DNA of 64,000 bases from Arthrobacter beigongshangensis (lineage in GTDB: Bacteria; Bacillota; Bacilli; Bacillales_A; Planococcaceae). The stretch spans positions 62,001 through 126,000 of the forward strand of contig NZ_JADHDX010000003.1 of NCBI RefSeq assembly GCF_016820585.1, read 5' to 3'. Below are positions 3,425 to 64,000 of the stretch, one piece after another (position 1 is the first letter of the stretch; each line of letters starts with the position of its first letter). Both the position numbers and the translations under genes were made by a program. The notes beneath the pieces were generated by a model, which was not told where the DNA came from, did no database searches, and saw only the letters and a program-made list of their open reading frames with translations.

Positions 3425-4459
3425 TTAAGGTATTACTTTTATAACTCCAACAGCGCCTTTTGTAGCATGATTAAACTGGTGTGTAACGAATGGATATTCC
3501 CCTTCTTCTGTAACAATGAATTCAACAACGGCTCCTCCGCTTGCAGGAAGCATAACTGTTTGTAAGCCTTTCATGTGGTTGGCGGGATTTCCATCAATAT
3601 AAACATCGTCTAGAATTGTTCCAATGACGTGGAAAGAGCTTACTTCGTTTGGTCCCACGTTATTGATATAAATACGAACTTTTTCTCCAACTTTCGCGAC
3701 TAGTGGCTGTTCTTTTAAAGTGAATGTATCACCATTTGTACTGCGGTCCCCTTCGTTTAATGCTTTTGTTGAAAAAACGACTTGGCTTGGAACACCGTTT
3801 GTCATATCATCCATATCATTTTCTTTGTACCATTCATTTTGTACAATCACAAATTCCCGATCGACTTCATGGTCAGTCGGATAACCATTTTTGGGTTTGA
3901 CGATGATTACTCCATGCATTCCGTTCGCGATATGTTCCAGAACTGGGGCAGTTGCACAATGGTACATGAAAACGCCAGGTCTGTTGGCAGGGTAAGTAAA
4001 TATACCTTCTTCATTTGGCATAACATCCGCGAACCCTACATTTGGTGCTACATGCATTGAATGGAAATCCATACTATGCGGGACGGCTGGGTCAATGTTG
4101 ACAAGCTTGAAGTTGACAAGATCCCCTTCATTGACAACGAGGAGTGGTCCAGGTGCTTCGCCATTAAAAGTCCACGCCTTATACATTTCACCTTTCGCGA
4201 TTTCAATGTCAGTAATCTGTGAAGTCATCTCAATATTGACTTCATGTTCTCCCACACGTTCAAATTTGACTGGGACAGGCGGTTGATTTAGTCCTTCATG
4301 AGGTGCATACACTTTAACATCCGCTGTAGAATTTCCCGCTTCTGATTTAGCCTCCACTTTGACTTTCTCTACATCCTTGACAGCCGCATTCGATCCACAA
4401 GCCCCCAATATCATAGATACGGATAACATTGCTGCAGTTACTGCCATGCCTTTTTTCAT
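3425..4459 (-). CDS. nirK: Copper-containing nitrite reductase, lipoprotein form
   Basis: NirK reduces nitrite to nitric oxide in denitrification. The 344-residue protein has a lipoprotein signal with lipobox LGAC (Cys21), so it is probably anchored outside the membrane. Two cupredoxin domains follow. Type 1 copper ligands are His128, Cys168, His176 and Met181 (MYHCAT and HIANGM); type 2 ligands are His133, His167 and His327 (THQF). The catalytic Asp131 (SMDFH) and His277 (FHVIG) are present, so it should be active. GGAGGG precedes ATG 4459. It is a single-gene unit with a Crp/Fnr-type operator at about -41.5. The gas it makes would be handled by the heme-copper clusters at 36.6 and 60.8 kb. 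Confidence 0.97.
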   Translation of the reverse strand: MKKGMAVTAAMLSVSMILGACGSNAAVKDVEKVKVEAKSEAGNSTADVKVYAPHEGLNQPPVPVKFERVGEHEVNIEMTSQITDIEIAKGEMYKAWTFNGEAPGPLLVVNEGDLVNFKLVNIDPAVPHSMDFHSMHVAPNVGFADVMPNEEGIFTYPANRPGVFMYHCATAPVLEHIANGMHGVIIVKPKNGYPTDHEVDREFVIVQNEWYKENDMDDMTNGVPSQVVFSTKALNEGDRSTNGDTFTLKEQPLVAKVGEKVRIYINNVGPNEVSSFHVIGTILDDVYIDGNPANHMKGLQTVMLPASGGAVVEFIVTEEGEYPFVTHQFNHATKGAVGVIKVIP

Positions 4460-4539: not shown

Positions 4540-4555
4540 TGTGATTTTAATCACA
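4540..4555 (-). promoter_or_regulatory. Crp/Fnr-type operator upstream of nirK
   Basis: TGTGATTTTAATCACA matches TGTGA-N6-TCACA perfectly and is identical base for base to the site at 60691-60706. Confidence 0.85.
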
Positions 4556-28537: not shown

Positions 28538-29320
28538 TTATGAAAGAATCTTGACTTGTTTGCTAGTATTGCTATACCAATAAGCTGCTCCAATGAATAG
28601 GGCACCCCCTATGATATTGCCGATAGTGACGGGTACTAAGTTTGCCGCCAACCCCATCATCGACACTGTTTCAGGGTGGGGAACCATTAGTGAAATAGAG
28701 AGTAGCGTCATGTTGGCAATACTATGCTCAAAACCAGAAGTGATGAAAGCAAATAAGCACCAGAAAATCATAATTAGTTTCGCTGTTTCATCTTTTAATT
28801 TGACAGAGCACCAGGCAGCTAAACAGACAAGAATATTACAAAGAATCCCACGGACAAACAACTCCATAAATGGCGTATTCATCTTACTGCTAGCCGTTGA
28901 TGTGATGAAATCTGCTGTCACACCAGAAGCTAGACCAGAATAAAAAAATAGCGCTGCAACGACAATGGAGCCCGCGAAGTTACCGATATAACTAAAGATC
29001 CATACTTTTACTGTGTCATATTTTGTTGTTTTTTTCATCAATGTTCCAATGGTCATGATCATGTTATTACTCGTAAAAAGATCTGCGCCCGCCATAAGAA
29101 CAAGACTAAGCGCAACCCCGAAAGCCATTCCCATAATAAGCTTTGTACCTGCAAAACCGGAAGCCCCGAGCATTCCGCCAATCGTATAAATGAGAATAAC
29201 CCCTAATCCAACGAAAAATCCTGCCATCATTGTCACAGTGAAATATCTAGCTTTACTCGAGTTCAATAAATTAATTTTTGAAACAGCCATATCACTAAAA
29301 GTCGCGATTGTTTCTTTCAT
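28538..29320 (-). CDS. Formate/nitrite transporter (FNT) family channel, probable nitrite transporter
   Basis: FNT proteins form pentameric channels for formate, nitrite or hydrosulfide. The 260-residue product has six membrane segments and the channel His in SGFEHSIANM near residue 200. I chose the ATG at 29318-29320 with GGAGGG 8 bases upstream; the frame extends upstream to 29407 without a ribosome site. A perfect TGTGA-N6-TCACA operator lies about 120 bases upstream and matches that of nirK, so a nitrite role (NirC-like) is the best guess, not proven. Confidence 0.88.
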   Translation of the reverse strand: MKETIATFSDMAVSKINLLNSSKARYFTVTMMAGFFVGLGVILIYTIGGMLGASGFAGTKLIMGMAFGVALSLVLMAGADLFTSNNMIMTIGTLMKKTTKYDTVKVWIFSYIGNFAGSIVVAALFFYSGLASGVTADFITSTASSKMNTPFMELFVRGILCNILVCLAAWCSVKLKDETAKLIMIFWCLFAFITSGFEHSIANMTLLSISLMVPHPETVSMMGLAANLVPVTIGNIIGGALFIGAAYWYSNTSKQVKILS

Positions 29321-29438
29321 CTCATTTCCCTCCGGCTTTTTATCTTCTAAGTTGTAATCAGGAATACTGGTGAATCGGCTAAAGCTGCCTTTGTTAGATC
29401 GCTTCATGTTATAAGGTGTGAAGAAGTCGTGAAAAGTT

Positions 29439-29454
29439 TGTGAAGACTTTCACA
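29439..29454 (-). promoter_or_regulatory. Crp/Fnr-type operator upstream of the FNT channel gene
   Basis: TGTGAAGACTTTCACA fits TGTGA-N6-TCACA exactly. A TTATAA box at 29409-29414 on the minus strand could be the -10, placing the operator near -44. Confidence 0.7.
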
Positions 29455-36520: not shown

Positions 36521-36536
36521 AGTGATTTTTATCACA
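36521..36536 (+). promoter_or_regulatory. Crp/Fnr-type operator upstream of heme-copper cluster 1
   Basis: AGTGATTTTTATCACA differs from TGTGA-N6-TCACA only at its first base. It lies 102 bases before the CuA subunit gene. A -10 at the exact class II distance is not obvious. Confidence 0.7.
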
Positions 36537-36637: not shown

Positions 36638-37159
36638 ATGGTCCAAACAGTGGCGTGGGTAGTAAGTTTAGTGTTCATTTTAATCATTGCATTTGTTTTC
36701 GGTTTCGTTGCATTAAAGTCAACACAAAAACAAGACTATGATCCTATCGTAAAAAAATGGTACAAAATCCGTAAAGTGTATGGGACTTTTATTGTTGTTT
36801 TAATGATAGTCGTTATGGTTTATACGCTAAGAGAGTTGCCTTTTAATCAGCCTGTGTACAGCGAAGGCAATGAGCCAGTCATTGTAGATGTTGAAGCCTT
36901 TCAATTTGGCTGGGCAATCAGTGATAAAGAGTTTGATGTAGGTCAGTCTATTGAATTTCATGTGACGACTGCAGATGTAACACATGGCTTCGGTATTTAT
37001 GATGAAGAGATGAATTTAATAGCTCAAACACAAGCGATGCCGGAATATACGAATGTTGTCTACATAACGTTTGATAAGCCCGGTACTTATAAGATTCTAT
37101 GTTTGGAGTATTGCGGTTTGGCGCACCATATCATGATGGATCAAATTGTAGTGAACTAG
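36638..37159 (+). CDS. CuA-containing subunit II of heme-copper enzyme, cluster 1
   Basis: This 173-residue membrane protein accepts electrons and passes them to the catalytic subunit. Two N-terminal hydrophobic helices (about 4-26 and 48-64) precede a cupredoxin domain facing outward. CuA ligands are His116 (THGFGI), Cys155, Cys159, His163 and Met166 in CLEYCGLAHHIM, plus Glu157 by backbone. AAGGAGG precedes ATG 36638. It is the first gene of a three-gene operon under a Crp/Fnr-type operator. The partner subunit suggests nitric oxide reduction rather than oxygen reduction. Confidence 0.9.
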   Translation: MVQTVAWVVSLVFILIIAFVFGFVALKSTQKQDYDPIVKKWYKIRKVYGTFIVVLMIVVMVYTLRELPFNQPVYSEGNEPVIVDVEAFQFGWAISDKEFDVGQSIEFHVTTADVTHGFGIYDEEMNLIAQTQAMPEYTNVVYITFDKPGTYKILCLEYCGLAHHIMMDQIVVN

Positions 37160-37177
37160 AAAGGGAGTGTATTAGAA

Positions 37178-38665
37178 ATGGCTACTATTCATAAATATAT
37201 GCCGTTAAAATCAAGAGACGATAAAGTTGTGACACAAATGATTATTTCAGGTGTCGTTGTCATTGTAGGAATGATTTTTGGAGTCCTGATGTTGGCGTCT
37301 CAAGGTGGGCTTATTGAACTATCGGGGGCATCTTTTTATCAATTTTTAACGATACATGGTACAGCCATGATTGGTTCGGCGGCACTTGCGACATCTGCAA
37401 TCATGTGGTATTTCCTCAGCCATTATGTAGAGTTATCGAAGAAAATATTCAATCTTAATCTTGTGTTATTTTTAATAGGTGTTGTTATGACGATTATCGG
37501 GATATTCTCATTTGAATATGCCAGCGCATGGACATTCTTGTATCCGCTTCCAGCACTATCAGCAGGAGCTTGGGGTACGACAGGTGCTTTGCTTTATCTT
37601 GGGGGTATGCTTATTTTAGGAGTTGGCTTCCTGCTACTTTATATTGATACAGGTCGAGCAATTATTAAAAAGTATGGTAGCCTTGGAAAAGGTCTTGGCT
37701 GGGATGTTATTTCGGGAAAGAAAGCTGAAAAGGATGCACCACCTGCAACAGTTGTGGCGAGCACCATGGTAACAATCGTGAATATTTCAGCACTGACTGC
37801 TGGCGCAACGGTGCTTATTGTTAACATGATTAGTGTCGTCAATCCTGCCTTTACATTTAACCCGTTACTAGCTAAAAACTTAACATACGCATTCGGACAT
37901 ATTTTCGCCAACGCTACGATTTATATGGCAGTAATTGCAGTCTATGAAATTTTGGCCCGTTATACAAATAGACCTTGGAAGGCGAATAAACCATTTTTAA
38001 TCGCGTGGACAATGTCAACGGTATTTACAATGATTGTTTACCCTCACCATCTTCTTATGGACGGTGTAATGCCGAAATGGATATTAATTCTTGGGCAAAT
38101 CTTATCGTATGCGAATGGTTTACCAGTACTAATCATTACAGCTTATGGTGCTTTGATGATTGTTTATAAATCAGGCATCAAGTGGGATATGGGTTCATCT
38201 TTAATCTTTTTATCAATGTTTGGCTGGACGGCTGGTGTTGTTCCAGCACTTGTTGACTCAGCAATTGTCGTCAATCATGTCATGCACAATACGAAATGGG
38301 TTCCTGGACATTTCCATATGTATATGGGACTTGGCGTAATCGCGATGATGTTTGGTTTCATGTATTTCTTAGCCAAAAATGATAGTCAACTGAAAACAAA
38401 TGGCTTGGATAAGTTTGCATTCGTCCTCTATGCATTGTCGATGTTTGGCGTTTGTGTATCATTCCTCGTTTCAGGAGCTATTAGTACACCAAGACGCTTC
38501 GCGACACATATTCCTGAATGGATGGGACCAGCACAGGTCGGAGCAGTTACAGGCGTATTTGTTGTCATTGGTATTTTGATATTTGTCATTCATTTTGTTC
38601 GCTATATTGTCGGAAGAAATAAAACATCGGTTAGTAGTGTAGCACAGCAAACAGAAGTTATCTAA
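37178..38665 (+). CDS. Catalytic subunit I of a B-family heme-copper enzyme, probable CuA-type nitric oxide reductase, cluster 1
   Basis: The 495-residue membrane protein has about 12-13 helices. Low-spin heme ligands are His60 (TIHG) and His380, the high-spin heme ligand is His378 (PGHFHMYMG), and CuB ligands are His241 (AFGHIFAN), His290 and His291 (YPHHLLMD). At His241+4, where oxygen-reducing B-family oxidases carry the crosslinked Tyr, this protein has Asn245. That loss, the CuA partner, the Fnr-type operator and the nirK elsewhere favour NO reductase (sNOR-like). It is only distantly similar to the cluster 2 subunit I and could form a separate subgroup. Automated tools may call it cytochrome c oxidase. 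Confidence 0.85.
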   Translation: MATIHKYMPLKSRDDKVVTQMIISGVVVIVGMIFGVLMLASQGGLIELSGASFYQFLTIHGTAMIGSAALATSAIMWYFLSHYVELSKKIFNLNLVLFLIGVVMTIIGIFSFEYASAWTFLYPLPALSAGAWGTTGALLYLGGMLILGVGFLLLYIDTGRAIIKKYGSLGKGLGWDVISGKKAEKDAPPATVVASTMVTIVNISALTAGATVLIVNMISVVNPAFTFNPLLAKNLTYAFGHIFANATIYMAVIAVYEILARYTNRPWKANKPFLIAWTMSTVFTMIVYPHHLLMDGVMPKWILILGQILSYANGLPVLIITAYGALMIVYKSGIKWDMGSSLIFLSMFGWTAGVVPALVDSAIVVNHVMHNTKWVPGHFHMYMGLGVIAMMFGFMYFLAKNDSQLKTNGLDKFAFVLYALSMFGVCVSFLVSGAISTPRRFATHIPEWMGPAQVGAVTGVFVVIGILIFVIHFVRYIVGRNKTSVSSVAQQTEVI

Positions 38666-38700
38666 ATGGAAATTAAAGAAACGAAGTGGGGGATAAAGTG

Positions 38701-39258
38701 ATGAAACAAACAATCGGCGGCATTGTTTTGTATATACTATTACTGATTCCCCCTATCGTTTCTATCCTGGAATCTATTATGATTTTGCATATGCTCGTTC
38801 AAATACCTTTACTAATCATTACAGGCTGGTTAGTCGGTCAGTTTGTGGTGGACAAGTACCGTTCCTTTTTTACAAAGTGGAATGATGACGGTGTGCCAGG
38901 TGTTTTAATCTTCGTCTTTATTACAATGTATTGGATGCTTCCAAGAGCGATGGATGAAGCATTAGGAATTTGGTATATCGAGCTGTTTAAATTTGTGAGC
39001 CTACCCTTGGCGGGATTAGTTTTCCATGATAGCTGGAGAAAGCTACAAATACCCGGGAAAAGTTTTATCTTTTTGAATTATATTTCGATGTTTGGCTTAA
39101 TGGGCTGGTTGTATGTAGATTCTCCGATTCAATTATGTAATAACTACTTGGCGTTGGAGCAAAAAATACTAGGATGGGGTTTTTTATTCATCACTGCAGG
39201 AATGATTATTTACATTGTTCAACTAACCTTTATGGATCATTCAGAAGAAGTCGTCTAA
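38701..39258 (+). CDS. Membrane protein of unknown function, cluster 1 accessory
   Basis: The 185-residue protein has about five hydrophobic segments and no recognised catalytic motif. Its N-terminus (GIVLYILLLIPPIVSILESI, then MILHMLVQIPLL) is clearly paralogous to the protein starting at 63839 in cluster 2. A distant resemblance to CtaG-type copper-assembly proteins (HMxxQxPLL pattern) is possible but unproven. ATG 38701 follows GTGGGGG. It is last in the operon and ends before a terminator. Role as assembly factor or extra subunit is inferred from position in both clusters. Confidence 0.8.
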   Translation: MKQTIGGIVLYILLLIPPIVSILESIMILHMLVQIPLLIITGWLVGQFVVDKYRSFFTKWNDDGVPGVLIFVFITMYWMLPRAMDEALGIWYIELFKFVSLPLAGLVFHDSWRKLQIPGKSFIFLNYISMFGLMGWLYVDSPIQLCNNYLALEQKILGWGFLFITAGMIIYIVQLTFMDHSEEVV

Positions 39259-39264
39259 CAAATG

Positions 39265-39309
39265 TATTCCTTCCATGCGCTAGAAAAGCGAGGGGAAGGA
39301 ATATTTTTG
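39265..39309 (+). terminator. Terminator of cluster 1
   Basis: ATTCCTTCC pairs with GGAAGGAAT, followed by TTTTTG. Confidence 0.85.
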
Positions 39310-39359
39310 TTTCCTTGGTCCCAGATACGGTAGGTTTACTAGATAGTTAATCTGCCATG

Positions 39360-59678: not shown

Positions 59679-60365
59679 TTGGAGCAGTTAAAAGAGACGA
59701 TTAGACAGTTTAGGATTTTTAAAGACTTATGTGATAAAGAAATTGCACCGTTCCTTGAAATCATCAAAAAGAAAAAACTCGACGATAAAAGCATGGTTTT
59801 CATGCATGATAATCCCATCACGCATGTCTATTTTGTTAGCACTGGAAAAGTGAAAGTATTCCGAAATGACATGTCGGGTAAAGAACAGATTGTTTGTGTC
59901 AAGCAGCCAGGTGATATGTTTCCGCATGTTGGTTTTTTCCGTAAAGGCGACTATCCTGCACATGCGCAAGTCATTGAGGATACTGAACTGTATTTTATTT
60001 CGATTCAAGATTTTGAAGAAGTGCTAATGGCGAATCCCCATTTGGCGATTAAATTATTTAGTGTTTTGGGCGATCAGATTGTGGATGTTCAGCAAAGGCT
60101 TGAAGAAATGGCGTTGCGTAGTACGAATGAAAGGATTTTATTGCTTCTTTTACGTCTTAGTGAGACACATAGAGAAGAGCAGGCGGATGGCTGGATTAAG
60201 TTAAATACAAAATTTACGAATTCAGACCTTGCCAATATGATTGGAACGACGCGGGAGTCCGTCAATCGGATGATTTCACATTTACGAAAAGAACAAGCGA
60301 TTAAGTTAGTAGAAGGTAGTTACTTCATTTATCCTGAAAAGGTACAAGAGGAATTATCGATATAA
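59679..60365 (+). CDS. Crp/Fnr family transcriptional regulator
   Basis: The 228-residue regulator has an N-terminal cyclic-nucleotide-binding-like barrel (about 10-125), a long dimer helix and a C-terminal winged helix (FTNSDLANMIGTTRESVNRMI, about 180-200). The recognition helix reads R192-E193-x-x-x-R197, the pattern CRP uses for TGTGA half-sites, matching the operators at nirK, FNT and both clusters. Only Cys18 and Cys73 are present, with no Fe-S Cys cluster like B. subtilis Fnr, so the signal is not a standard 4Fe-4S; NO or redox sensing is speculation. Start TTG 59679 follows AAGGAG by 9 bases. Confidence 0.88.
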   Translation: MEQLKETIRQFRIFKDLCDKEIAPFLEIIKKKKLDDKSMVFMHDNPITHVYFVSTGKVKVFRNDMSGKEQIVCVKQPGDMFPHVGFFRKGDYPAHAQVIEDTELYFISIQDFEEVLMANPHLAIKLFSVLGDQIVDVQQRLEEMALRSTNERILLLLLRLSETHREEQADGWIKLNTKFTNSDLANMIGTTRESVNRMISHLRKEQAIKLVEGSYFIYPEKVQEELSI

Positions 60366-60690: not shown

Positions 60691-60706
60691 TGTGATTTTA
60701 ATCACA
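60691..60706 (+). promoter_or_regulatory. Crp/Fnr-type operator of heme-copper cluster 2
   Basis: TGTGATTTTAATCACA is identical to the nirK operator at 4540-4555. A TAGAGT box at 60728-60733 gives a start at 60740 and an operator centre at -41.5, but the -10 match is only moderate. Confidence 0.85.
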
Positions 60707-60766: not shown

Positions 60767-60916
60767 ATGGGAGCTCAAAAAGTGAACATCGAAGATAAGG
60801 AGAAGTTTGAACAAGAACATTCACTAAAAGGAACAGTATTTTCCGTAGGTGTTGTAGGGGCAGTTATTCTCGCAATGTGGGTTTTACTATTCGTATTATA
60901 CATGGGAAGAGTATAG
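60767..60916 (+). CDS. Small single-helix subunit (subunit IIa-like), cluster 2
   Basis: This 49-residue frame starts at ATG 60767, 6 bases after AGGAGGTGA, and ends at TAG 60914-60916. A charged N-terminus (MGAQKVNIEDKEKFEQEHS) is followed by one membrane helix (about residues 23-45). It resembles the small subunit IIa of ba3-type enzymes that completes the transmembrane part of a short CuA subunit. It lies 13 bases before the CuA gene. Cluster 1 has no such gene; its CuA protein has two helices of its own. Confidence 0.8.
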   Translation: MGAQKVNIEDKEKFEQEHSLKGTVFSVGVVGAVILAMWVLLFVLYMGRV

Positions 60917-60929
60917 GGAGGGAAAAGAC

Positions 60930-61397
60930 ATGAAAATGCACCGTTATGAAGAATTATGGCTCATCATAAGTGGCGGCATGTTGGTTATCTTCATGTTGAT
61001 CACGGGATATCAAACATTCGCACTAGGCATGGGACCACCAAGTCATAAAGAAACACTAGATCCACAAAAGGTTGATCAAACAGCGCCGTTCGATAACCCA
61101 GGTGTTTACGATCGGGGGAACAATGAATACGAAGTGATTATGACGTTACAAACATTCGGCTTTACACCAAGTAATATTGAAGTACCTGTGGGTGCAAATG
61201 TGACATTCACAATGACTTCTAAAGATGTGGTTCATGGATTCCAAGTAGTAGGTACTAACTTGAACGCGATGGTTATGCCAGGCTATATTCAAAAAATTAC
61301 ACAGAAGTTTGATGAACCTGGTGAATATTTAGTGTTATGTAATGAATACTGCGGAATCGGTCACCAGATGATGAGTACGACAATTACGGTTAAATAA
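60930..61397 (+). CDS. CuA-containing subunit II, cluster 2
   Basis: The 155-residue protein has one N-terminal membrane helix (about 9-33) and an outward cupredoxin domain. CuA ligands are His102 (DVVHGFQV), Cys137, Cys141, His145 and Met148 in CNEYCGIGHQMM. It receives electrons from cytochrome c or another donor for the adjoining catalytic subunit. GGGAGGG precedes ATG 60930. It has a one-helix form, typical of ba3-type and CuA NOR enzymes, consistent with the separate small helix protein just upstream. Confidence 0.92.
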   Translation: MKMHRYEELWLIISGGMLVIFMLITGYQTFALGMGPPSHKETLDPQKVDQTAPFDNPGVYDRGNNEYEVIMTLQTFGFTPSNIEVPVGANVTFTMTSKDVVHGFQVVGTNLNAMVMPGYIQKITQKFDEPGEYLVLCNEYCGIGHQMMSTTITVK

Positions 61398-61411: not shown

Positions 61412-63085
61412 ATGGCAACAGCACAGTCACTAAGTCAAAAAACGAATAAAATATTAGGCGTTAACTCTCAAGATGCGAAGCTATCGAAATCATATATGTT
61501 TGTAGCATTTACAGCGTTATTAATTGGTGGATTTCTAGGATTAGCACAAGGTCTGGAACGCGCAGGACTAATCCAATTACCATCATGGTTTACCTATTAC
61601 CAAGTGCTCACAGCACACGGAGTATTACTCGTTCTCGTATTAACAGCGTTCTTCACAATTGGTTACTTTTATGCAGGGCTTTCCCACACTTTAGGGGGAC
61701 TTCTCCCGAAAGTAAGAACCATGGGCTGGATTGGCTTCTGGATGAAAATCGTGGGATTTGTTATTGCAGTTATACCTATCTTGTTGAATAAAGCAACAGT
61801 GCTCTATACATTTTACCCACCAATGGCAGCTTCTCCATTCTTCTATATTGGTTTAGCGTTCATTGTATTAGGAGTCTGGGTTTGTGCGTTTGGAGCATTT
61901 ATCAACGTAGCAACTTGGAGAAAGCAGAATCCAGGACAAAGTATTCCAATTCTAGCCTTCTTCGCAACAGGTGTATTTGTACTTTTATTCTTCGGAAGTA
62001 TCGGCGTTACAATTGAAGTCGTTATGCTGATTTTCTGGTCTGCAGGCTTCCTTGAAACAATCAACGTCATGGTCAGCCGAACACTATTTTGGGCTTTTGG
62101 CCATACACTGGTAAATATTTGGTATCTAACAGCCGTATCTGCTTGGTACGTCATTGTACCAAAAGTTATTGGTGGCAGACGCTTTAGTGATACGCTAACA
62201 CGTATCGTTGTCATCATGCTGGTCATTACAAATATTCCTGGTGGGTTCCACCACCAAATTGTTGACCCAGGAATGGCGGAAACATTGAAATTCTTGCATG
62301 TCTTTATGAGTTTATCAATCGGTTTACCATCTCTTATGACAGCGTTCGCGATGTTCTCAGTATTTGAACGCACAGGTAGAAGAAAAGGCGGTAAAGGGCT
62401 ACTTGGTTGGTATAAAAAATTGCCATGGGGAGATGTTCGCTTCCTCGCACCGATGATTGCGATGATTGCATTCATCCCAGCAGGAGCAGGTGGTATTGCA
62501 CAAACAACAAACCAATTGAACCAAGTTGTTCACAATACATTATGGGTTGTTGGACACTTCCACTTAACAGTAGGTACATCCGTTATTCTAACATTCTTTG
62601 GAATTAGTTATTGGTTAGTGCCTTACTTATCCAAACGGGTATTAACACCGGCGATGAATAAATTAGGGGTTATCCAAACGATTATTTGGACAGCAGGTAT
62701 GCTGTTCATGTCGGGTTCGATGCACTGGGTTGGCTTACTCGGCTCACCACGTCGAACATCTTATACAACATACGGCGATAACGCAACCGCGCTTGGTTGG
62801 GATCCATACATGATCCTACTCGCTATTGGTGGAACACTACTAATCATCGGTGTTGTAATCCAAGTATACGCAGTTTTCAATATGATGTTCCTAGCACCAA
62901 AAGGCGTAACAGAATTCCCAATTGCTGAGCCAGAGGAAAACGAAACAAAAACACCGCTTTGGACAGATCGCTGGGGACTATGGATTATCATTATGCTGTT
63001 AGTCGTATCAATGGGCTATGTCGTTCCGTTAGTAGACTTAATTGTAAATGCACCACCAGGTTCGCCGCCAATTAAAACTTGGTAA
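61412..63085 (+). CDS. Catalytic subunit I of ba3-like heme-copper enzyme, probable CuA-type nitric oxide reductase, cluster 2
   Basis: The 557-residue membrane protein aligns with B-family oxidases. Ligands: low-spin heme His69 (TAHGV) and His384, high-spin heme His382 (VGHFHLTVG), CuB His231 (AFGHTLVN), His280 and His281 (GGFHHQIVDPG). The residue at His231+4, the crosslinked Tyr of oxygen reductases, is Asn235. With the CuA subunit, a CRP/Fnr-type operator and nirK in the same genome, I favour NO reduction (sNOR-type, as for CuANOR of Bacillus azotoformans). GGAGGG precedes ATG 61412. Automated annotation as cytochrome ba3 oxidase would be misleading. Confidence 0.87.
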   Translation: MATAQSLSQKTNKILGVNSQDAKLSKSYMFVAFTALLIGGFLGLAQGLERAGLIQLPSWFTYYQVLTAHGVLLVLVLTAFFTIGYFYAGLSHTLGGLLPKVRTMGWIGFWMKIVGFVIAVIPILLNKATVLYTFYPPMAASPFFYIGLAFIVLGVWVCAFGAFINVATWRKQNPGQSIPILAFFATGVFVLLFFGSIGVTIEVVMLIFWSAGFLETINVMVSRTLFWAFGHTLVNIWYLTAVSAWYVIVPKVIGGRRFSDTLTRIVVIMLVITNIPGGFHHQIVDPGMAETLKFLHVFMSLSIGLPSLMTAFAMFSVFERTGRRKGGKGLLGWYKKLPWGDVRFLAPMIAMIAFIPAGAGGIAQTTNQLNQVVHNTLWVVGHFHLTVGTSVILTFFGISYWLVPYLSKRVLTPAMNKLGVIQTIIWTAGMLFMSGSMHWVGLLGSPRRTSYTTYGDNATALGWDPYMILLAIGGTLLIIGVVIQVYAVFNMMFLAPKGVTEFPIAEPEENETKTPLWTDRWGLWIIIMLLVVSMGYVVPLVDLIVNAPPGSPPIKTW

Positions 63086-63199: not shown

Positions 63200-63835
63200 A
63201 TGATCCACAAGCGACATAATGTACTAGCGACAATCATCGTTCTACTCTTTGGCTTTGTTCTATTTTATGTAGGAACTGATCAGTTCAGTGCATTTACTGC
63301 GGAAACGGCGCGGGTGAATAAGTTAGTGGAGGAAAAACCGCAATTTCCTGATGTTACATTTGAAGATAGTAAGGGGCGCACTTATTCAATTGATGAATTT
63401 AAAGGAAAATATGTTTTCATTACATTTATTTATTCGATGTGCACAACAGTTTGTATTGATTTGGAAATGAATATGGACCAGGTATATGATTTAATTCCAA
63501 AAGAGTATATCGGAAAAGACATACAGTTTTTAAGTATTAGCTTTGACCCTGAACGCGATGATCCCGAAAGATTAGATATTTATAAAAATCTATTTACGAA
63601 TAGTGATGGAGAACTATGGCGAATGGCAAGGATTAAGGATCAGAAGGAACTACAATTCTTGTTGGATGAGTTTGGGGTTATTGTAATTCCCGATGAATAT
63701 GGAAACTTCGCGCATAATTCAGCATTCTATTTAGTTGACAGGCAAGGTACTTTAGCGGAGGTCTTAGATTATAAGAAGATTGAGGAAGCAGCGAATGCAG
63801 TCATCAAAATCCTTGATGAAGAAGCAGGTGTGTAG
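63200..63835 (+). CDS. Sco1/SenC family copper chaperone
   Basis: The 211-residue membrane-anchored thioredoxin-fold protein delivers copper or reduces cysteines of CuA. An N-terminal helix (about 8-26) is followed by the Sco domain with copper ligands Cys and Cys in MCTTVCID near 80 and His in FAHNSAFYLVD near 171. ATG 63200 follows GAGGGAG. It lies between the catalytic gene and the accessory membrane-protein gene, so it likely matures the cluster 2 CuA site. Another Sco for cluster 1 is not seen in the window. Confidence 0.94.
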   Translation: MIHKRHNVLATIIVLLFGFVLFYVGTDQFSAFTAETARVNKLVEEKPQFPDVTFEDSKGRTYSIDEFKGKYVFITFIYSMCTTVCIDLEMNMDQVYDLIPKEYIGKDIQFLSISFDPERDDPERLDIYKNLFTNSDGELWRMARIKDQKELQFLLDEFGVIVIPDEYGNFAHNSAFYLVDRQGTLAEVLDYKKIEEAANAVIKILDEEAGV

Positions 63836-63838
63836 GCT

Positions 63839-64000
63839 ATGAAACAATTTAAGTACGGTTTGGTACTCTATCTATTTTTAGTCCTTCCTCCGGTCGCAAA
63901 TGTGTTGGAGTCAATTATGATTATGCATATGCATATGCAAATGCCGTTATTTGTTATGGCAGGTTTTTTAATGGCGAAGCTATTCCAACAAAAGTTTCCA
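63839..64000 (+). CDS. Accessory membrane protein of cluster 2 (partial at window end)
   Basis: The first 54 codons are present (GLVLYLFLVLPPVANVLESI, then MIMHMHMQMPLF). They match the start of the cluster 1 protein at 38701 closely in hydrophobicity and residues (VLY, LPP, LESIMI, HM, Q, PL). The stop lies beyond the window. It starts 3 bases after the Sco stop, so it is cotranscribed. Function unknown; perhaps assembly or extra subunit. Confidence 0.8.
   Translation, partial: MKQFKYGLVLYLFLVLPPVANVLESIMIMHMHMQMPLFVMAGFLMAKLFQQKFP

Follow-up and report, generated by a model that had tools for sequence, protein, structure and literature searches.

A putative CuA-type nitric oxide reductase of the qCuANOR type II group in Arthrobacter beigongshangensis and its probable membrane partner protein

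The window analysed here is a stretch of 64,000 nucleotides from Arthrobacter beigongshangensis, a member of the Planococcaceae according to its GTDB lineage (assembly GCF_016820585.1, contig NZ_JADHDX010000003.1, positions 62,001 to 126,000). It contains two gene clusters for heme-copper enzymes, as well as genes related to nitrogen oxides (Table 1). Cluster 1 comprises the genes of a two-helix CuA subunit, subunit I, and a membrane protein, in this order, and the third gene may truly start at the ATG at position 38701. Subunit I matches the Pfam COX1 family with 160 bits (cut-off 34.8). A SenC/SCO gene is missing from the operon, and it is also missing beside several relatives, so that this trait is not constant in the family.

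Table 1. Genes and sequence features of the window
Feature	Position	Strand	Remarks
NirK-like copper nitrite reductase	3425..4459	-	TIGR02376, 184.8 bits (E 2.5e-54), below its curated cut-off (296.3)
Exact box before nirK	4540..4555	.	81 bp
Formate/nitrite transporter	28538..29407	-	PF01226, E 3.4e-70
Exact box before formate/nitrite transporter	29439..29454	.	32 bp
Crp/Fnr-type box AGTGATTTTTATCACA	36521..36536	+	About 100 bp 5' of cluster 1; differs from TGTGA-N6-TCACA at one position
Cluster 1 subunit II, CuA protein, cbaB2/norS type	36638..37159	+	173 aa, 522 bp
Cluster 1 subunit I, Asn-type heme-copper enzyme, cbaA2/norY type, putative sNOR	37178..38665	+	495 aa, 1488 bp
Cluster 1 third protein, membrane protein, cbaC2/cbaD1 family	38686..39258	+	190 aa, 573 bp
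Terminator-like inverted repeat, then T-rich stretch, 3' of cluster 1	39263..39315	+	Identified by eye
Crp/Fnr-family regulator, candidate reader of the boxes	59679..60365	+
Exact TGTGA-N6-TCACA box before cluster 2	60691..60706	+	60 bp before the first gene
49-aa membrane peptide gene heading cluster 2	60767..60916	+	Position and size of cbaC1 (PMC3475470)
Cluster 2 subunit II, CuA protein, cbaB1 type	60930..61397	+
Cluster 2 subunit I, Asn-type, putative type I CuANOR/bNOR	61412..63085	+	557 aa; FGHTLVN
Cluster 2 SCO/SenC protein, possible copper donor to both clusters	63200..63835	+
Start of cluster 2 third-protein homologue, cbaD1 type	63836..64000	+	Continues past the window end

The first-pass annotation had read cluster 1 as a nitric oxide (NO) reductase, based on the active-site residues of subunit I, and the residues are as it described them. 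The six histidines that bind the hemes and CuB (His60, His241, His290, His291, His378, and His380) are in place, and the position four residues after the CuB histidine is taken by Asn245, which aligns to the cross-link tyrosine of Thermus ba3 (4gp8) and of the Aquifex enzyme (7deg). This site is Tyr in all five sampled Tyr-type B-family oxidases and in all three sampled enzymes of the aa3/bo3 type. The ba3 oxygen reductases of Thermus and Aquifex share the fold and the six histidines with cluster 1, but they have tyrosines at positions +4 and +11 from the CuB histidine, the latter being Val252 here. The structural contrast with cluster 2 also stands: subunit I is short (495 aa, compared to 557 aa in cluster 2) and 23-26% identical to its counterpart, and the N-terminal part of subunit II contains two hydrophobic stretches (8-26 and 46-64) instead of one. 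What fails is the reading of this contrast as an oxidase against an NO reductase, because the cluster 2 subunit I also has Asn at CuB-His +4, which rules out an oxidase; judged by its sequence, cluster 2 belongs with the type I CuANOR/bNOR operons. The corresponding residues of eNOR and gNOR, Gln and Asp, are not those of cluster 1, which excludes both as its identity (PMC8756737 Table A4).

Relatives of cluster 1, called type II here, were collected by a profile search of genome contigs with an alignment of five relatives. The best 80 of 114 were kept, and they belong to Bacillota and to Alpha-, Gamma-, and Zetaproteobacteria. A Cytobacillus-like type II gene in a record titled Pseudomonas sp. 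ISL-84 (L081), which may be mislabelled or contaminated, was not counted as proteobacterial. In Mesobacillus maritimus, the type I and type II operons are adjacent and divergent (L079:3362-9398). A search of plasmids added three more relatives (3 of 72,556 records at E 1e-30), from Parasedimentitalea marina, Thermomicrobium roseum, and Ruegeria pomeroyi, the last of which we take to be the organism formerly called Silicibacter. The T. roseum protein, which is absent from the subunit I tree, is 31% identical and has the Asn, and its gene is followed by those of a transporter and CtaG. The R. pomeroyi operon encodes an Rrf2 regulator, subunit II, subunit I (49% identical), SCO, the third protein, and a transporter. 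Annotation labels the type II enzyme a cytochrome oxidase.

Conservation was assessed in 77 full-length subunit I sequences, composed of the window protein and those of 76 of the 80 loci (L056, L068, L085, and L089 were omitted because of short frames). Asn245 and all six histidines are invariant in the 77 sequences, so the Asn is no chance variant. Tyr249, Tyr256, Glu257, and Asp360 are likewise invariant; Tyr256 is common to type II, the sampled ba3 oxidases, and the type I proteins, whereas the other three are found in type II only within the sample and differ in both of these groups. The presumed CuA ligands of subunit II, H116, C155, E157, C159, H163, and M166, are the same in all 77 sequences aligned. 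Glu257 might be suggested as a candidate proton-path residue; in Table A4 of PMC8756737, no proton channel is predicted for sNOR.

In the 53-row subunit I tree, type II is a single clade of 33 rows with a support of 100/100, and a 32-row tree agrees with it. Cluster 1 lies within this clade of Asn enzymes and outside the oxygen-reducing B-family clade, so that the grouping among oxidases that the first-pass annotation had named as evidence against its own proposal was not found. It shares the clade with the published type II locus of N. bataviensis (BABA_18502), which is our locus L059 (LMG 21833 contig126, which carries the published type II genes; subunit I 55-57% identical). It is outside the type I clade (BABA_00225; 557-560 aa, one-helix CuA subunit), to which cluster 2 belongs, grouping with the N. 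bataviensis type I protein beside the Tyr oxidases. Type I, represented by the B. azotoformans enzyme and cluster 2, resembles cluster 1 in the Asn, the CuA subunit, the third-protein family, and the upstream box, and differs from it in clade, length, and the number of helices in subunit II. The clade also rules out cNOR and qNOR as the identity of cluster 1; their absence among the best 50 matches listed by VIA-align and Foldseek carries no weight.

A single common origin of all Asn enzymes was weakly rejected (p-AU 0.030, 32 rows) in a test affected by long branches and with a group named after the first tree had been seen. It is likely, although not certain, that the Tyr site changed twice, separately in type II and type I. 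The window subunit I nests among Bacillaceae in the 53-row tree, and type II is present in one of the 19 genera of the host's order (5 of 261 genomes), which suggests that the host acquired it by transfer. Two further carriers were detected among 398 sampled genomes of the class, and in one of them the gene is split in two frames. Subunit I frames split in two were observed in G040 (L011, L017) and G480 (L019, L020).

The first-pass annotation had proposed a possible separate subgroup. The subgroup is real as a clade, but it is not a new one, as cluster 1 matches the putative qCuANOR type II, described in Bacillus azotoformans, B. bataviensis, and Geobacillus (PMC3475470). The type II subunit I is one helix shorter, with a length of about 493 aa and Asn in place of Tyr, and its CuA subunit has two helices; the B. 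azotoformans operon consists of cbaB2 (519 bp), cbaA2 (1482 bp), senC2, and cbaC2 (582 bp) (PMC3475470). Cluster 1 agrees with these published loci in gene order, gene sizes, the short subunit I, the two-helix CuA subunit, and the Asn, but no SenC/SCO gene separates its genes for subunit I and the third protein, and the latter protein belongs to a bNOR-like branch.

The name sNOR for cluster 1 is less sure than its assignment to type II. Table A4 of PMC8756737 gives N for sNOR in Betaproteobacteria, Silicibacter, Deinococcus, and Geobacillus, and for CuANor in Bacillus. Since qNOR, bNOR (formerly CuANOR), and sNOR are reported together in Neobacillus (PMC11388526), type II would by elimination be sNOR, and type I bNOR. 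The likening of the nitrifier sNOR to type I (PMC3475470) runs against this equation, and the nitrifier enzyme was compared with cluster 1 by its published description. The sNOR of Proteobacteria (Silicibacter/Ruegeria and nitrifiers) shares with cluster 1 the Asn and the architecture of a two-subunit CuA enzyme (PMC8756737). In contrast, proteobacterial third proteins are just 27-36% identical to that of cluster 1, and cluster 1 adjoins no transporter gene, with one lying 7 kb upstream in the window. sNOR is counted among the proposed, not the characterised, families (PMC11388526).

The surroundings of cluster 1 connect it to the metabolism of nitrogen oxides. Within the fetched stretches, whose flank lengths vary and to which no formal null was applied, NirK is near 6 of the 80 type II loci; a formate/nitrite transporter is near 13 of the 80, all within the 16 proteobacterial loci, with a partial match in L080. 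In the genus, 5 of 68 genomes carry type II, 19 have type I (E up to 1e-190; Asn confirmed in the seven checked), and 7 have NirK matches with E under 1e-50, three of these with a stop inside the match. Weaker multicopper matches alone were obtained in 24 further genomes, and none of the 68 passes the curated NirK cut-off. NirK and type I accompany type II in all five of its genomes, compared to NirK in 2 of the 63 others (Fisher p 2.0e-6, kinship ignored). The host's own genome has NarG and three heme-copper enzymes with the cross-link Tyr; no NosZ exceeds the cut-off, and neither qNOR nor cNOR is among its six PF00115 matches. From the presence of NarG and from these absences, the predicted range of reduction is nitrate to N2O, which would make the host a net source of N2O.

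Regulation points in the same direction. Four TGTGA-N6-TCACA sites with at most one mismatch are present in the window, and all four precede N-oxide genes, namely nirK, the transporter, cluster 1, and cluster 2. Their number is unremarkable (shuffle mean 2.65; 26 of 100 shuffles reach four), but the three exact sites exceed chance (shuffle mean 0.07; 0 of 100 reach three). The whole genome has 16 exact sites, compared to one in a backward control. Fifteen were inspected, of which three are those of the window, before nirK, the transporter, and cluster 2. Others precede, one each, a ScdA-type repair gene beside narG, DUF2249 genes, a radical SAM-SPASM gene, and a PAS_10 gene, and the remaining ones are near desaturase, nitronate monooxygenase, NERD, or spore lipoprotein genes, or near no clear gene. 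The repair gene encodes a ScdA_N/hemerythrin protein directly 5' of narG (L148; C34 of the own genome, about 202.9-207.7 kb). The DUF2249 box heads an ORF row (L155:1767-4502; C3 of the own genome, about 85.3-88.0 kb) with, among others, a 430-aa membrane protein that weakly matches COX1 (23.4 bits, under the cut-off) and then a small ORF; it is possibly an N-oxide or low-oxygen operon.

Boxes of relatives were scored in the 300 bp before each operon with at most one mismatch, in groups drawn after the loci had been seen and with 4 of the 80 loci unscored. They precede 24 of 31 operons of Bacillota group A (expected 0.40), 2 of 30 of Bacillota group B (expected 0.30), and 0 of 15 proteobacterial operons (expected 0.13). 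Group B and the Proteobacteria are taken to show no excess, which speaks against the NO reading. Two other motifs gave no clear excess in Bacillota A, Bacillota B, and Proteobacteria, with 0, 3, and 1 matches for TTGAT-N4-ATCAA and 1, 0, and 0 for TTGAC-N4-GTCAA. The TGTGA-N6-TCACA boxes also fit low-oxygen control of oxidases, which counts against an NO reading, as do the boxes of this genome that precede unrelated genes or none, the mismatch in the cluster 1 box, and the score of NirK below its cut-off.

The third protein provides a further link between the two enzyme types. Its family has 17 matches in 12 of the 68 genomes of the genus, each of them at most 754 bp from a type I or type II subunit I gene, and it is found beside all 5 type II and 12 of the 19 type I genes. 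The window protein is 51% identical to its own type I partner and 45% to the type I partner of N. bataviensis, but only 27-41% to the sampled type II partners of Proteobacteria, the Fredinandcohnia group, and the Calidifontibacillus group. For subunit I the identities are reversed, with 44-60% to the same type II relatives and 23-26% to type I. A branch with support 100 in the third-protein tree sets the type I rows, together with 22 type II rows from Bacillota, apart from the rest, and the SCO tree has a like grouping with support 91. The nesting of the type I rows depends on midpoint rooting, and the argument rests on the identities instead. These reversed identities and the branch groupings would be explained by an accessory module of SCO and third protein swapped between type I and type II; no account of such a swap was found in the CuANOR/sNOR literature consulted. 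We give about even chances to the broader proposal that sNOR and bNOR, having lost the Tyr separately, need the same dedicated membrane partner, and that the SCO/third-protein module was exchanged in Bacillota. Pfam DUF1404 is detected in 18 of 38 family members, with the window protein under the cut-off. Against solved structures, the third protein has no sequence match to E 1 and no Foldseek match under E 0.001. The CtaG gene after the transporter in Thermomicrobium raised the idea of a CtaG relative, which found no support (hhalign probability 0.14%).

Taken together, these findings make it likely that the product of cluster 1 is an sNOR (qCuANOR type II), which would be a heme-copper NO reductase with a CuA entry subunit, and we hold this reading with good confidence. 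Reduction of NO as its substrate activity is favoured by the convergence of regulation, neighbourhood, co-occurrence, and the shared partner. Electrons would enter at CuA on the outer face, and the low-spin heme would relay them to the heme/CuB site in subunit I, where two NO would be converted to N2O. Asn245 stands there in the place of the cross-linked Tyr with which oxygen reductases split O2. The third protein probably helps to assemble or stabilise CuA-type NO reductases and would be specific to them. Cluster 1 lacks an SCO gene of its own, and the SCO of cluster 2 may serve in its copper loading. A Crp/Fnr-family regulator probably induces the operon along with nirK, bNOR, and the nitrite transporter in response to low oxygen or N-oxides, in a host that would reduce nitrate as far as N2O.

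An oxidase role, perhaps with high affinity, has been argued for sNOR in Nitrosomonas, where it is induced under oxygen limitation (PMC6967387). This argument and the oxidase fold would fit a rival reading in which cluster 1 reduces O2 with high affinity when oxygen is low, tolerates NO, and does not need the cross-linked Tyr. We regard this as improbable and set it aside as the main reading, given the clade, the absence of the Tyr in every full-length relative, the three Tyr-bearing enzymes already in the genome, and the ties to NirK, the transporter, and bNOR. Considerably less probable is a dual enzyme that reduces both NO and O2 and mainly removes NO at low oxygen instead of serving denitrification; the ScdA-type repair gene in the box regulon and the bNOR already present would fit it, but the genes for NarG, the NirK-like protein, and the transporter suggest respiration. 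That cluster 1 was transferred, is now decaying, and no longer functions in this strain, as its presence in just five of 68 genomes, the split subunit I of G040, and the lack of an SCO gene could indicate, is scarcely credible for an intact copy that has all ligands and the box and whose subunit I is 94-96% identical to two others.

The reading of cluster 1 as an sNOR bears on the question of whether this family reduces NO or O2 (PMC6967387; PMC11388526). Closely related species of the genus with and without sNOR, NirK, and bNOR make the question approachable by gene removal. If the shared-partner proposal is true, CuA-type NO reductases would have in the third protein both a maturation factor and a genomic marker. 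If the enzyme is an NO reductase, as is probable, it would convert nitric oxide, which is toxic, to nitrous oxide, a greenhouse gas.
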